A stretch of DNA of 64,000 nucleotides from Fuerstiella sp. (lineage in GTDB: Bacteria > Planctomycetota > Planctomycetia > Planctomycetales > Planctomycetaceae), in contig JAKVAZ010000007.1 in NCBI GenBank assembly GCA_022447225.1, positions 112,475 through 176,474 of the forward strand, in the 5' to 3' direction. The position numbers and the translations under genes were made by a program. Positions within the stretch are counted from its first letter, which is position 1; each line of letters opens with the position of its first letter. Below the pieces are notes generated by a model. That model was given only the letters and a program-made list of their open reading frames with translations. It did not search any database and had not been told where the DNA came from. Shown in pieces: positions 12,964 to 19,006 of this stretch.

Positions 12964-13115
12964 TGGACGAACAAATCCCGCAGTGAAGCGAGTATTTTGT
13001 TCAGAACTGAGTGGGATTTCGGTTATTCATGAGGCTGCCATCAGCTGAGACCCGTTCAATTCATATCAAATGCTCCAGACCGGCTCCGCTCAGCCGTTTT
13101 GACAGTCAGGTTCTC

Positions 13116-14738
13116 ATGTCTTTGTATTTCTTCAACGTGGGGATGATGATCACACTGGGATTGGCGATACCTGTGGCGCCTTCTGTGCGGGCGGCAGAGC
13201 CGGTGCTTTCCACAGTGGACTTCATCGATCAGCAGATCGCACAGGCGTGGGATGATAATGAAGTCAAGCCGTCCGGTCCCGCAACGGATGAAGAATGGGT
13301 CCGGCGAAGTTATCTGGATGTCGCCGGACGAATACCGTCGCTGCAGGAGACCACTGACTGGCTGGAAAGCAGGGATCCTCGCAAAAAATCAGTTCTGATC
13401 GAGTCGCTGCTGGGGGGGGATGACTACGTTCGCAACTTTACGTCGATCTGGACCAATGCATGCATTGGCCGGGGAACTCCGCGACGTGTCAGCCGGAACG
13501 CACTGGAGAAGTTCTTCCGTGAAACTTTTGCAAAAGGGCGTCCCTGGAACGAGGTTGTCAGGGATCTGGTTACGGCGGAGGGACATTTCGAGGAAAACGG
13601 AGCTGTCAACTACATTCTGGCTCAAACTCAAACACCTGATGATGCCGTTCAGTTGACGGCCAGAACGACTCGTTTGTTCCTGGGAATCCAGGTTCAGTGT
13701 ACTCAATGCCATGACCATCCGTTTAACAATTGGCAGCAAAGCCAGTTCTGGCAGTACAACAGTTTCTTCCGTCAGGTACGCCGCATTGATCGTCGTCGCC
13801 AGGATCCCGAGTCCGGGCGTCTGGTAGATGATTACTCGGAAGTCGTTCGTGGTGTCTTTCAGGGACCGGTGTATTTCGAGAAAAGAAACGGTTTGATGCA
13901 GGTCGCGTTTCCGGAGTTCCAGGGACGCAAAGTCGATCCGGCAGCGGACGACCGCCGCGCCGAATTTGGACGGCTGATGATGGAGCCGGCAGACGGTAAT
14001 TCACCGCTGATTGCTCAGGCGTTTGTGAACCGGATGTGGGCTCATTTCTTTGGCTACGGATTTACTCGTCCGGTGGACGATCTGGGTCCGCATAACCCTC
14101 CCTCGCATCCCGACCTGCTGATTCGACTGGGCGCCGATTTTGCGGCTGCCGATTATGACGTGAGGCAGTTGATTCGCTGGATCACCAGCAGCCAGGCGTA
14201 TTCACTCACCAGTAAACTGAGTGACAATAACCGGATGGATAATCCATCTGCCGGTGAGATGCCTTTGTTTAGTCATGCCTATCTCAAATCCATGCAGGCA
14301 GAACAGTTATATGATTCTTTGATTGTTGCGACCAGAGCCCACCAGTCGGGTAACACCGGCTGGGACACACAGGAGAAACAGCGCAGACGCTGGATGCAGC
14401 AGTTTGTTGTTGCCTTTGACAACGATGAAAACGACGAGGCGACGACCTTCAACGGCACGATTCCTCAGGCGATGATGCTGATGAACAGTGAACTGTCAGA
14501 GAAGGCCGTGAGTGCAGAACAGGGAAGTTTTTTACATCAGGTGCTCACCGGATCGGATTCTGAAGGGAAGAAGCTGCAGCAGCTGTATCTGGCAGCGTTC
14601 AGTCGTCATCCGACCCGCAGCGAAATCTCTCGAGCACGGCGTTTGTTTCGAGCGTACGGCAGAACCGGTCAGGTTGCCGCGTTTCAGGATCTCTTTTGGG
14701 CTTTACTGAACTCAAATGAGTTCATCATGGTGCATTAG
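13116..14738 (+). CDS. DUF1549/DUF1553 exported protein with CxxCH motif
   Basis: About 540 residues from the ATG at 13116, which gives a good signal peptide (hydrophobic [18 protein letters not shown], cleavage before AEP). Earlier in-frame starts at 13011 and 13029 exist. DUF1549 covers the N-terminal half ([20 protein letters not shown]) and ends around [14 protein letters not shown], whose CTQCH (residues 195-199) has the form of a c-type heme site. DUF1553 covers the C-terminal half ([20 protein letters not shown], then [11 protein letters not shown]). Such proteins are abundant in planctomycetes and normally paired with DUF1501 genes, as here; their biochemical role is unproven. It is shorter than many relatives, which reach 700-1000 residues. 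Confidence 0.88.
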
Positions 14739-14800
14739 TATCGATTTGGTATCACCCTGATCATTTTTTTTCTGACCGACGATTGACATCGGAGTTTGCC

Positions 14801-16102
14801 ATGGCGATCCGGAATAACTGCGGCATGAAGCGTCGACACTTCATGGAACATGTAGCCACTGCCGTCTCTGCCATTCCGGCGTTGAATTTTCTGTCGCACG
14901 TTACGACCCACGCCGATACCGTGCGGGCTCGTCGAAAGGCCTGTATTCTCATGTGGATGGGCGGCGGGCCTCCGTCCATCGATATCTTTGATCTGAAACC
15001 GGGATCAAAAAACGGCGGAGAATTCAAACCGATCGAGACGGCCGCTCGGGGAGTGCAGATCAGCGAACACATGCCGGAGACGGCAAAAGTCTTTCAGGAT
15101 CTTTCGCTGGTACGGTCCATGAGTACACGGGAAGCGGATCACAGCCGCGGTCGGTACTACATGCACACATCTTACGTCCCAAATCCCACGGTCACTCATC
15201 CCACCTTTGGATCGATCGTGAGCTATCAGTTCAGTCAGCGATCTCATTCACTTGAAATTCCCGCATTCGTTTCGATTGGTGGAACATCGGGTGATGCCGG
15301 GTTTCTGGGAATGGCACACGCTCCGTTTGTCGTTGATTCCTCGGGACGTATCAAAAATGCACCATCTGATGAGAACAAGCGCAGGCTTCCCGGACGACTT
15401 GCAATGCTCGAAGAAGTGGAAAAGAGTTTCATTAGATCCGGCCGTGGTGATTTGCCTAAAGACCACCTGAGCGTCTATCGGAATGCTGTGAACCTGATGA
15501 CTTCTCCGCAGATGGCTGCCTTTAATGCGGATTCGGCCTCCGCGGCCCTTGGACTGGAACAGGAATCTTCGCAAACCAGAGAACTGTACGGACAGAATTC
15601 ATTTGGACGAGGGTTGCTGATGGCCCGAAGACTGGTTGAAGTTGGAGTCCCGTTCATCGAGGTGAATATGGGCGGATGGGACCTCCACCAGAACGTATTT
15701 CGGACACTTCGTGATCAGCGTCTTCCGCAACTGGATCAGGGCCTCTCGGCACTTGTTCAGGATCTGAAGCAGCGCAGCATGCTGGACGATGTTGTGCTGG
15801 TGTGGATGGGAGAATTCGGGCGGACGCCGCGAATCAATCAGAATGCGGGACGCGATCACTGGGCTGCCAGCTGGACAACTCTTCTGGGTGGAGGAGGACT
15901 CAACAACGGTCAGGTAATCGGGGCAACAGATTCGGACGGCGTTGGAATTGCAGACGGCAGTCAGTCGTACCTGCCAGGTGACATCTGGGCCACCGTTGCC
16001 CATGTACTCGGAATTCCACTCAACACCGTCTACACATCAAAACGAGGTCGTCCCATGAAACTGGCCAACGGCGGTACGCCTGTCAGGGAACTTGTGAGCT
16101 GA
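14801..16102 (+). CDS. DUF1501 family protein with Tat-like signal
   Basis: About 433 residues. The N-terminus [16 protein letters not shown] has a twin-arginine-like RRxF signal. The body shows DUF1501 (sulfatase/alkaline-phosphatase-like fold): [49 protein letters not shown] and a C-terminal LGIPL segment. The product is expected to act outside the cytoplasmic membrane together with the DUF1549/DUF1553 protein encoded 62 bases upstream. The ATG at 14801 has GGAG nearby; 14783 and 14825 are alternatives. Function is unknown; the fold suggests a metal-dependent hydrolase, but the substrate cannot be named. Confidence 0.88.
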
Positions 16103-16110
16103 TACCGGTG

Positions 16111-16332
16111 ATGTTCCGGTTCATTGCGGACCGGAAATATCGAGACACGATTTGTACATCTGCATTTTCAACAGGTCAGTGCTTCGGTCTGGCTGATTGT
16201 GATGCCGTGGTATCCCTGCCGACGCACCGGTCCGGTAACAGTGCGGAGCCGCCGAGAAAACGACCGTTGAAATTCAAACCAGTGGATACAATTGTTAGCA
16301 CAGACATTAAGCCGGTTTTCGTGTCTTCATGA
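16111..16332 (+). CDS. Possible small ORF coupled to the ECF sigma gene
   Basis: 73 codons from the ATG at 16111 (a GTG lies at 16108), starting just after the DUF1501 stop. Its TGA overlaps the sigma-factor ATG as ATGA at 16329-16332. The product is not recognised and has no clear motif. The coupling geometry is the only argument in favour; a leader peptide that sets sigma translation is possible, and chance is equally possible. Confidence 0.25.
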   Translation: MFRFIADRKYRDTICTSAFSTGQCFGLADCDAVVSLPTHRSGNSAEPPRKRPLKFKPVDTIVSTDIKPVFVSS

Positions 16333-16874
16333 ACCCTGATGATCAACCAGCCAGTTTGCTCAGCGACGACGAATTCATTCGTCTGTTTACCAGCAACCAG
16401 CGTTCATTATTCCTTCATATTCTGCCTCTCGTGGGCAATGGACCGGATGCTGACGAAGTTCTCCAGGAAACAAATCTGATCATGTGGGCCAAACGCGAAC
16501 AGTTTGAACCTGGCAACAGTTTTCTGGCGTGGGGACGAGCGATCGCCCGGCTTGAAGTCTTTCGATTCCGGCGTACTCGCGGCAGAAAACTGAAATTTTT
16601 GGAAGGGGATCTGCTGGATCGTGTTGCCGGTCAGACGGAAGCTTCTTCCGACGAACTGGAACTGCGGCGAGAGGCTCTGGATTACTGTTTTCAGAAGTTG
16701 CAGGCCAAAGATCGAAAACTGATTCGACTGCGGTATTCGCCCGGAACGAGCGGTGACGATATTGCCCGGCGACTGGGACGACCGGCGAATTCGGTGTATC
16801 AGTCTCTCGGACGCATTCGTCGTACTCTGGCCGGATGTATCCGTCGGCGACTGGCGTCAGGAGAGGTCAGATGA
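16329..16874 (+). CDS. ECF RNA polymerase sigma factor (planctomycete type)
   Basis: 181 residues. Region 2 spans about residues 12-80 (ADEVLQETNLIMWAKREQF, FLAWGRAIARLEVFRFRR). Region 4 spans about 115-175 and has a helix-turn-helix (YSPGTSGDDIARRLGRPANS, VYQSLGRIRRTLAGC). The short length and these sequences match the Rhodopirellula/Verrucomicrobium-type sigma-70 family proteins. It should direct RNA polymerase to a small regulon. The gene overlaps the next one by ATGA, and that product carries the anti-sigma-like domain, so the pair is probably a sigma/anti-sigma module. Confidence 0.9.
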   Translation: MNPDDQPASLLSDDEFIRLFTSNQRSLFLHILPLVGNGPDADEVLQETNLIMWAKREQFEPGNSFLAWGRAIARLEVFRFRRTRGRKLKFLEGDLLDRVAGQTEASSDELELRREALDYCFQKLQAKDRKLIRLRYSPGTSGDDIARRLGRPANSVYQSLGRIRRTLAGCIRRRLASGEVR

Positions 16875-19006
16875 CCGATCCAATGAAAGAGGCTGCCCGG
16901 CTTATCAGTTGCCACATTGACGGAGTGATGTCGGAAGACGAGCAATCCCGTCTTGCCGCGTTGATGCGTCAGGATTCCGGTATTGTTGAGTTGTACGTTG
17001 ACATGATGCTGCTGGACGGACATTTAACGTGGGGAGCAGTGAACAGCCCGTCGGTGTCTTCGGAACGGACAACTGACAGTTCGGTTATGCAGACTGATGC
17101 GGGAAGTGATTCGTCACTGGCTCAGTGGAAACACGGTGCCGTGTCTGCGTCTGTACGCAAACGTCAGTGGTCACGTCCGTGGTCGGTCACACTGGGCGTT
17201 GTTCTGATTGCGGTATGCGTGCCGGGCCTCTTTCGGCTGTTTCGCTCTTTCGGCCCGGTCACGTCGGTGGGGCCGTCAGCGACTCGTGCATTGATTCACG
17301 ATCCATCGGTCGAAGATCATTCCGGTGACGAACTGTCTCAATCGCCTGAGCTGAATCCACTTCATTTTGACAGTCTGACCCGCCCCATTGTCGTGGTCCC
17401 GTCGGTTTCGACGAGTGATACTGCAGACCGTCCCGACGTTGCCCGGAACTTTTTTAGGGAAGGATTTTCAGACGAAGACATCATTGCGGCAATCAATCAG
17501 CAGATTAGTCAGACTCTGAGGGAAAACGGAATTCCGCCGTCTCCCCGGGCACCGGCTGAGGAATGGGCACGACGAGCCTGGCTCACTGTGGCAGGGCGAA
17601 TTCCGTCGGTTGATGAGATCCGGTCCACACCTGCCGGAACTGAGAGTGAGTCGCGTCGGGTGATCATGGATCGACTGCTGCACAGTCCCGAGCGCAGCCG
17701 GCGGCTTGCTGAAGTCTGGACAGGTCTGCTGGTCGGGCGGTCCGGGCATCAGCGCATCAATCGCTCTGCGCTGATGGAATATCTTTATGATGCGTTTCTT
17801 GAAAACCGACCGTGGATCACTGTTGTTGGTCAGTTGATTAGTGCTGAAGGAAGCTCGGACGATAACGGTGCCACCAACTTTCTGCTGGCGCATCTTGATA
17901 ATCAGGCGACACCGGCCACGGCCGTGACCGCTCGATTGTTTCTTGGCGAACAGCTTCAGTGTGTTCAGTGTCACAATCACCCGTTTGCACAACAGGTACA
18001 GCAGCAGGATTACTGGGCCCTGAATGCTTTCTTCCAGAATGCAGAAGCAACCCTGGATGATGTGGGTCGTTCCACGTCTTCGCGTCAGGATCAGACGTTT
18101 CGCCTGGCCGATCGTCGGGTGGCAGGAATGACGTTCTACGAAACCCGAAACGGGCGGCAGGAGGCTGTTGTGCCTGCATACGATGGTCGCAAAATTCCGG
18201 CGGAAAGCAGTGTCCACCGCCGCGTCGTTCTGGCGGAATACCTGGCCACGGATTCGCAGCTACGGGTGGCCCGGGCGATGATCAATCGCATGTGGGCCGA
18301 ATTCTTTGGATTTGGATTTACCAGTCGTGTTGACGACATGGGCCCGCATGCTGCCGTGAGCCATCCCCAACTGCTGGGTTTGTTGTCCGACGCTTTTGTT
18401 GCTTCCGGGTATGACCTGCAGCGACTTCAAAGATGGATCGCACTCTCAGACGCATGGCAGTGCAGCAGTCAGGCGACTCCGGAGAACGAACAGGATGCAC
18501 CCGAATCAGGGATTTTACCTCTGTTCAGCCGAGTTTACATGCGGAGGATGTCTCCGGAACAGGTCTACGATTCGATTCGAGTGGCCATTCGGGCCGTCTC
18601 AATGCAGACCCGGGAGACGGCAGAGGAATCAGATCATCGACGTCGATGGATCAATCAGTTTGCCCGACCGTATGATACCGATGAAAATGATGAAACCAAC
18701 GAATTCGTGGGCGGGATCACTCAGGCTATGGTGATGATGAATGACGCCGACGTCAATTCTGCCATTCGCCGGGCGATCGAAACACTACTGGCCCGAGATG
18801 ATCTGTCTTCGTCGGTCGACCGTGTCCTCGAACAGGTTTCACTGGCGGTGCTCACTCGTCGTCCCACATCACGGGAATCCGCCCTGTTTCGTCAGTATCT
18901 CAAGCGGACGACTCGTTCCGCCGGCCGTCGAACTGCATTGCCTCAGGTGACCGAAGATCTGCTTTGGACCTACCTCAACAGCAGTGAATTCCAACTGATC
19001 CACTAA
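16871..19006 (+). CDS. Anti-sigma-like domain fused to DUF1549/DUF1553
   Basis: 711 residues from the ATG overlapping the sigma stop. Residues 1-55 (LISCHIDGVMSEDEQSRLAA, then ELYVDMMLLDGHLTW) match the cytoplasmic N-terminus of planctomycete FecR-like anti-sigma proteins. One membrane segment follows at about 104-124 (SVTLGVVLIAVCVPGLFRLF). Beyond a linker, DUF1549 begins near residue 200 (EEWARRAWLTVAGRIPSVDE) and contains CVQCH at 364-368. DUF1553 then runs to the end (MINRMWAEFFGFGFTSRVDD, then LNSSEFQLIH). The topology implied is a cytoplasmic sigma-binding domain with an external DUF1549/1553 module. The catalytic part is paralogous to the gene at 13116-14738. Signalling from the outer module to the sigma factor is inference. 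Confidence 0.85.
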   Translation: MTDPMKEAARLISCHIDGVMSEDEQSRLAALMRQDSGIVELYVDMMLLDGHLTWGAVNSPSVSSERTTDSSVMQTDAGSDSSLAQWKHGAVSASVRKRQWSRPWSVTLGVVLIAVCVPGLFRLFRSFGPVTSVGPSATRALIHDPSVEDHSGDELSQSPELNPLHFDSLTRPIVVVPSVSTSDTADRPDVARNFFREGFSDEDIIAAINQQISQTLRENGIPPSPRAPAEEWARRAWLTVAGRIPSVDEIRSTPAGTESESRRVIMDRLLHSPERSRRLAEVWTGLLVGRSGHQRINRSALMEYLYDAFLENRPWITVVGQLISAEGSSDDNGATNFLLAHLDNQATPATAVTARLFLGEQLQCVQCHNHPFAQQVQQQDYWALNAFFQNAEATLDDVGRSTSSRQDQTFRLADRRVAGMTFYETRNGRQEAVVPAYDGRKIPAESSVHRRVVLAEYLATDSQLRVARAMINRMWAEFFGFGFTSRVDDMGPHAAVSHPQLLGLLSDAFVASGYDLQRLQRWIALSDAWQCSSQATPENEQDAPESGILPLFSRVYMRRMSPEQVYDSIRVAIRAVSMQTRETAEESDHRRRWINQFARPYDTDENDETNEFVGGITQAMVMMNDADVNSAIRRAIETLLARDDLSSSVDRVLEQVSLAVLTRRPTSRESALFRQYLKRTTRSAGRRTALPQVTEDLLWTYLNSSEFQLIH

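Follow-up and report, generated by a model that had tools for sequence, protein, structure and literature searches.

Planctomycete genomes each encode dozens of proteins of the DUF1549/DUF1553 (PSCyt2-PSD1) type, for which we know of no function. In the DNA analysed here (the window, a stretch of 64,000 nucleotides from Fuerstiella sp.), one of the 75 DUF1549 matches of the genome lies in a protein whose gene directly follows that of an ECF sigma factor. This arrangement raises the question of whether the DUF1549/1553 module serves as the outer sensor of an anti-sigma factor that controls the neighboring sigma factor, as the initial annotation had proposed.

The sigma factor scored 137.9 bits against the NCBIfam model TIGR02989, above its curated cut-off of 124.55 bits, and it has sigma regions 2 and 4 without region 3 (Sigma70_r2 and Sigma70_r4_2, both over the Pfam cut-off), placing it in that family. 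It is the sole TIGR02989 match over the cut-off in its genome. The ATG of the next gene occupies positions 16871-16873 and the sigma stop codon TGA positions 16872-16874; the two genes therefore overlap by ATGA, as first annotated. The start at 16329 that had been assigned to the fusion belongs to the sigma gene, and the coding sequence of the fusion runs from 16871 to 19006. An overlap or a short gap between the two genes is found in most orthologues, many of the fusion starts overlapping or abutting the sigma stop codon.

Table 1. Features of the locus, in window coordinates
Feature	Position	Strand	Size and evidence
Candidate ECF promoter CGAACA-N18-GTATTT	12968..12997	+	Upstream of the secreted operon; family-wide motif, subclade form
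Secreted DUF1549/DUF1553 protein, paralogue of the sensor	13116..14738	+	540 aa; Pfam, ORF
DUF1501 protein, probable partner of the secreted DUF1549/1553 protein	14783..16102	+	Pfam E 6.4e-95
ECF sigma factor, TIGR02989 family	16329..16874	+	181 aa; NCBIfam and Pfam scans
ATGA stop/start overlap of sigma and fusion genes	16871..16874	+	Sequence
Fusion: anti-sigma-like domain, membrane helix, DUF1549/DUF1553	16871..19006	+	711 aa; ORF, Pfam, hydrophobicity, AlphaFold
Residues 1-57: cytoplasmic three-helix anti-sigma-like domain	16871..17041	+	Profile, predicted fold, coevolution
Residues 106-124: transmembrane helix	17186..17242	+	Hydrophobicity; AlphaFold helix 105-123
Residues 125-189: linker, predicted disordered	17243..17437	+	pLDDT mostly below 50
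Residues 208-392: DUF1549 (PSCyt2)	17492..18046	+	Pfam
Residues 364-368: CVQCH	17960..17974	+	Sequence; kept in 47/48 type-1 orthologues reaching the site
Residues 450-711: DUF1553 (PSD1) region	18218..19003	+	Pfam, AlphaFold

In the fusion protein, DUF1549 (E 2.7e-33, 116.1 bits) and DUF1553 (E 2.5e-31, 109.4 bits) both scored far over the gathering cut-off and occur in the order expected of PSCyt2-PSD1 proteins, in line with the full module containing CVQCH that had been reported. Its only hydrophobic segment, at residues 106-124, agrees with the membrane helix placed earlier at about 104-124. AlphaFold predicted disorder up to residue 188 and a confident outer domain from 190 to 711.

The gene pair is conserved. 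Searching with residues 1-230 of the fusion gave matches in 7 of 59 genomes, all with the order DUF1501 - sigma - fusion. A profile built from residues 1-60 of these seven found matches in 130 of 150 genomes from the same family. We fetched 49 loci representing the top match class of this profile in that family. All 49 have an ECF sigma gene directly upstream and a fused DUF1549/1553 module, so the pairing is not due to chance; the search for this domain order beside ECF sigma genes, which had been recommended, thus recovered it in every orthologue fetched, in addition to a second lineage described below. The usual order is secreted DUF1549/1553 - DUF1501 - sigma - fusion. DUF1501 lies upstream in 44 of the 49 loci; four of the other five run into a contig end, and only L104 truly lacks the gene. 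A secreted DUF1549/1553 gene was found in 37, seven of the remaining 12 loci being cut by contig ends and five having no copy nearby (L086, L105, L106 and L145, which group together in the sensor tree, and L104, also devoid of DUF1501). One clear membrane segment was found in 46 of the 49 fusions. A class-wide search yielded no top-scoring fusion of this type outside the family. The collection of named genomes contained 45 fusion loci, partly from the same genomes as the 49; among the named genera represented there, Fuerstiella was the nearest.

Some fusions are interrupted. In the closest relative, the fusion gene (L046:52-2229, also L149 and L200) is broken by a stop codon or frameshift into ORFs of 551 and 163 aa, the gene being either misassembled or truly disrupted. 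At L186:5941-8076, a frameshift or a real gene split leaves an anti-sigma-like ORF of 121 aa apart from a DUF1549/1553 ORF of 559 aa.

We then examined the N-terminal domain, whose anti-sigma-like character had initially been read from the sequence LISCHIDG. That motif is not diagnostic: zf-HC2 reached 14.2 bits at best against a threshold of 22.2 (E 0.05-0.37), and neither the cysteine nor any Hx3Cx2C motif or set of ligands is conserved in 48 sequences, arguing against a zinc-binding anti-sigma domain (ZAS/zf-HC2). The anti-sigma-like start itself stood on other evidence. AlphaFold predicted three helices (residues 4-16, 22-34 and 36-57) with pLDDT values of about 87-97. Foldseek comparison of this N-terminal model alone with the PDB returned 42 hits, with RsiW, MucA, ChrR and RslA at ranks 1-4, 7, 13, 24, 30 and 37. 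Because each of these anti-sigma matches had an E value above 1 and was individually weak, the evidence lies in the enrichment of anti-sigma factors and not in any single hit. RsiW was also retrieved with the full-length fusion model, at rank 48.

The predicted bundle is thus nearest to those of class I (ASDI) anti-sigma proteins such as RsiW, MucA/RseA, ChrR and RslA. The fusion resembles this class in its N-terminal cytoplasmic three-helix bundle, present in the predicted model only, in adjoining and coevolving with its ECF sigma gene, and in its membrane-bound form, variable outer domains being found in membrane-bound class I proteins. Unlike them it has no Hx3Cx2C motif, and AlphaFold predicted no counterpart of their typical fourth helix, which binds sigma-2. 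A further difference is that PDB sequence searches, whether run with the profile of the N-terminus or with the full protein, found no relative and matched no solved anti-sigma factor. Residues 58-104 are of low confidence in the single-chain model and may fold only on the sigma factor.

The weaker matches of the N-terminal profile were proteins of about 470-670 aa with FecR and/or lectin-like (LamG) domains. Their N-termini aligned with those of the fusions in hhalign at 99.6% (E 8.3e-25), and all 20 examined sit directly behind an ECF sigma gene. This set was gathered by similarity, and the independent information is the sigma neighbor, which was not used in the search. These relatives behind sigma genes speak against the possibility, considered at the outset, that HMM searches would find the N-terminus unrelated to anti-sigma domains.

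A partnership between this domain and the sigma factor was also apparent from their inheritance. Among the 20 genomes of the family devoid of an N-terminal match, 19 also have no cognate sigma factor, their best sigma matches being no better than 1e-34, as compared with values of 1e-77 to 1e-87 for the seven controls; the one exception, a fragment, lies at the edge of a contig. Across 34 loci, evolutionary distances of the sigma factor correlated most strongly with those of the N-terminus (r 0.70), as opposed to those of the sensor (0.55), the DUF1501 protein (0.46) and the secreted DUF1549/1553 protein (0.43), and the value for N-terminus and secreted protein was 0.21. With sensor, secreted protein and DUF1501 controlled for, the partial correlation between the sigma factor and the N-terminus was 0.62, a value reached in 0 of 2,000 permutations.

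The secreted paralogue of the sensor and the DUF1501 protein are encoded upstream. The former probably starts at ATG 13116, judging from the gene of the same genus in L149; its longest ORF begins at 13011. The true start of DUF1501 may lie downstream of 14783. The distances of the two proteins correlate with an r of 0.78, pointing to a working pair. Upstream of this operon, the dyad CGAA[CT]-N17-GGT was found in 17 of 37 loci, compared with 0 of 37 on the reverse strand and 2 of 133 coding control windows. The aligned sites read CGAAC[AG]TT - GGTWATT, a form typical of ECF promoters, and in the subclade of the window CGAACA is followed by GTWA with slightly variable spacing. The support was weaker in 53 further upstream regions, many of them from families without this sigma factor: the dyad (N16-18) occurred in 16, the matches being counted anywhere in 370 bases, some inside an ORF and not all in promoter position. 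The subclade motif has four matches in the genome, including the one listed in Table 1, vs one for the reversed pattern; a quick look at the other three showed no clear gene for them to drive. Among the remaining DUF1549 genes in that genome, its occurrence barely exceeded chance (4 of 30 in 1.5 kb vs 1.4 expected). We infer that this sigma factor reads the CGAAC...GT motif. Autoregulation of the sigma gene through the dyad is not supported, as the motif is nearly absent from the intergenic sequence before that gene and not enriched there; counts upstream of sigma are inflated if the DUF1501 coding sequence is included. At some sites a palindrome seemed possible ahead of the -35 element, but it showed no excess over other centres.

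A different N-terminus ('DPILDxxLEExLGGxxPPDLSxRIL'), unrelated to the one above (type 1), precedes a membrane segment in proteins of another family (f5), and rarely of f11 and f3. All 19 genes of this type 2 have an ECF sigma gene of a different group upstream, within about 150 bases for 18 of them and at about 870 bases in L294; the two sigma factors of this group that we scanned fell below the TIGR02989 cut-off. Thirteen carry DUF1549/1553, much diverged in two cases, and the C-termini of the other six are mostly of the VWA type. In L284, L285, L291, L294 and L295, VWA-type outer domains stand in place of DUF1549/1553 behind the type-2 N-terminus and its ECF sigma. In the sensor tree the 47 type-1 sensors form one clade (SH-aLRT 99). 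The tree is unrooted, and a branch with a support of 99 separates the type-1 sensors and the secreted copies of their own family from the type-2 sensors. Given this separation, the sequences are most simply explained by two recruitments of the outer domain; a single old fusion with later replacement of parts is a less simple account. The occurrence of a second fusion in another family, with another sigma factor, argues that the wiring is selected and not incidental.

The proposal that an outer DUF1549/1553 sensor controls the adjacent ECF sigma factor through an anti-sigma N-terminus was thus supported by every computational test that we ran, namely domain similarity, predicted fold, gene order and overlap, co-loss, coevolution and the second lineage. 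The fusion is probably a membrane anti-sigma factor, with a sensor paralogous to the secreted protein that its sigma factor controls. From the observed anatomy, the similarity of the N-terminus to sigma-linked domains, co-inheritance, coevolution and the promoter motif, we infer direct binding of the sigma factor, its inhibition and not its activation, control of the target operon and a mechanism of release. The 57-residue cytoplasmic three-helix domain would hold the co-translated sigma factor, one helix would span the membrane, and the outer DUF1549/DUF1553 domain would act as sensor. The main target of the sigma factor would be the secreted DUF1549/1553-DUF1501 operon with its CGAAC...GT promoter. 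On meeting a substrate, ligand or state acted on by the secreted protein, the outer domain would trigger release of the sigma factor, either conformationally or through cleavage by a protease of the M50/RseP type, and synthesis of the secreted DUF1549/1553-DUF1501 pair would follow. M50 proteases are encoded in the genome, making regulated proteolysis possible. A dedicated sigma/anti-sigma pair, a paralogous sensor and a predicted promoter provide a concrete, testable circuit for a widespread family of mysterious function. There is about an even chance that planctomycetes have at least twice independently fused a sigma-binding domain to a DUF1549/1553 copy under the control of the same sigma factor, and that these 'product-mimic' sensors read the substrate of the secreted protein; if so, the circuit could be used to find the substrate of the DUF1549/1553-DUF1501 pair.

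Other readings of the fusion were weighed against an anti-sigma factor. Its N-terminus might bind the sigma factor and be needed for its activity, in the manner of FecR, as a signal-dependent activator or chaperone and not a simple inhibitor. FecR-domain proteins are among the closest sequence relatives of this N-terminus, and the 59 N-terminal residues of Escherichia coli FecR are essential for sigma activity (PMC7406223). However, the FecR domain (PF04773) is absent from the fusion and from the whole genome, no TonB-dependent receptor was seen in the module, and the nearest predicted folds are those of inhibitors; we consider FecR-like activation unlikely. It is more improbable still, to the point of being hardly credible, that the fusion is merely a membrane-anchored enzyme beside a sigma factor that is incidental or controls something else. 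Such an enzyme would be expected to keep most residues invariant in the secreted copies, as the fused copies do (59 of 94 columns at 90% or more), but not to show the sigma-specific coevolution of the N-terminus, the co-loss or the parallel pairing in another lineage. The fused copies also diverge faster than the secreted ones, with a median identity of 45% vs 58% (594 of 595 pairs), a pattern that, as far as sequences can tell, agrees with a role in binding or sensing and with relaxed catalysis.

As to the signal, PSCyt genes have been tied to carbohydrate use by gene neighborhood in Verrucomicrobia (PMC5615132), making a carbohydrate a reasonable first guess by analogy. Heme or redox sensing, the heme being covalently held as c-type by CxxCH and the signal being redox state, oxygen or a heme ligand, is a live alternative, if a rather doubtful one. 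Of the 48 type-1 fusions that extend to the site, 47 have CxxCH, as do all 13 DUF1549-bearing type-2 sensors that were fetched; C364, C367, H368 and H370 are retained in the fused copies, and P371 is kept too. Yet this motif is common to the whole DUF1549 family including the secreted copies, and is therefore not specific to sensing. Foldseek with the whole fusion model found no cytochrome-like fold, and no DUF1549/1553 relative at an E value of 0.001 or better. In the one exception, L083:4751-7201, CxxCH is wholly replaced (LFLGRRAEHAEHLQEA) with the rest of the domain kept, and the secreted partner retains CTQCH; heme is thus not essential in every member, and this locus is naturally suited to testing the heme hypothesis.

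The proposed anti-sigma circuit has partial parallels in known systems. In Clostridium thermocellum, the GH10 domain of RsgI6 shares 57% identity with Xyn10D, and SigI6 activates the Xyn10D promoter (PMC4711584). By analogy, the fusion would likewise be a membrane anti-sigma factor with an outer domain closely paralogous to a secreted protein under sigma control. The SigI6/RsgI6 system differs in its non-ECF SigI factor, its other N-terminal domain and its glycoside hydrolase outer domain, and the fusion is not a member of it: Pfam and NCBIfam scans detected no RsgI domain, and the partner sigma is of the ECF type. In Rhodopirellula baltica, the ECF sigma factor RB10049 was proposed in 2004 to regulate the PSCyt2/PSD1 protein RB10051, according to its citation in a 2009 paper in which RB10049 was induced under three stresses (PMC2754498). 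ECF control of one PSD1 protein, a relationship like that proposed here, is therefore, going by that citation, an earlier suggestion. In the open-access papers searched, neither the anti-sigma fusion nor its promoter, its second origin or the conservation of its operon was found to be described. The architecture, the circuit and the double origin appear to be new, and an earlier mention of the domain order is possible in the main surveys.

Other close counterparts are the planctomycete TIGR02989 sigma factors with FecR/LamG-type anti-sigma proteins, which share the sigma family and a related N-terminus encoded directly behind the sigma gene; their outer parts are FecR and lectin-like domains, unlike the DUF1549/1553 module of the fusion. 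At 9 of the 20 FecR/LamG-type loci (L121, L122, L123, L127, L128, L131, L135, L136 and L140), a separate DUF1549-type gene comes next, and planctomycetes may generally place DUF1549 operons under ECF control.
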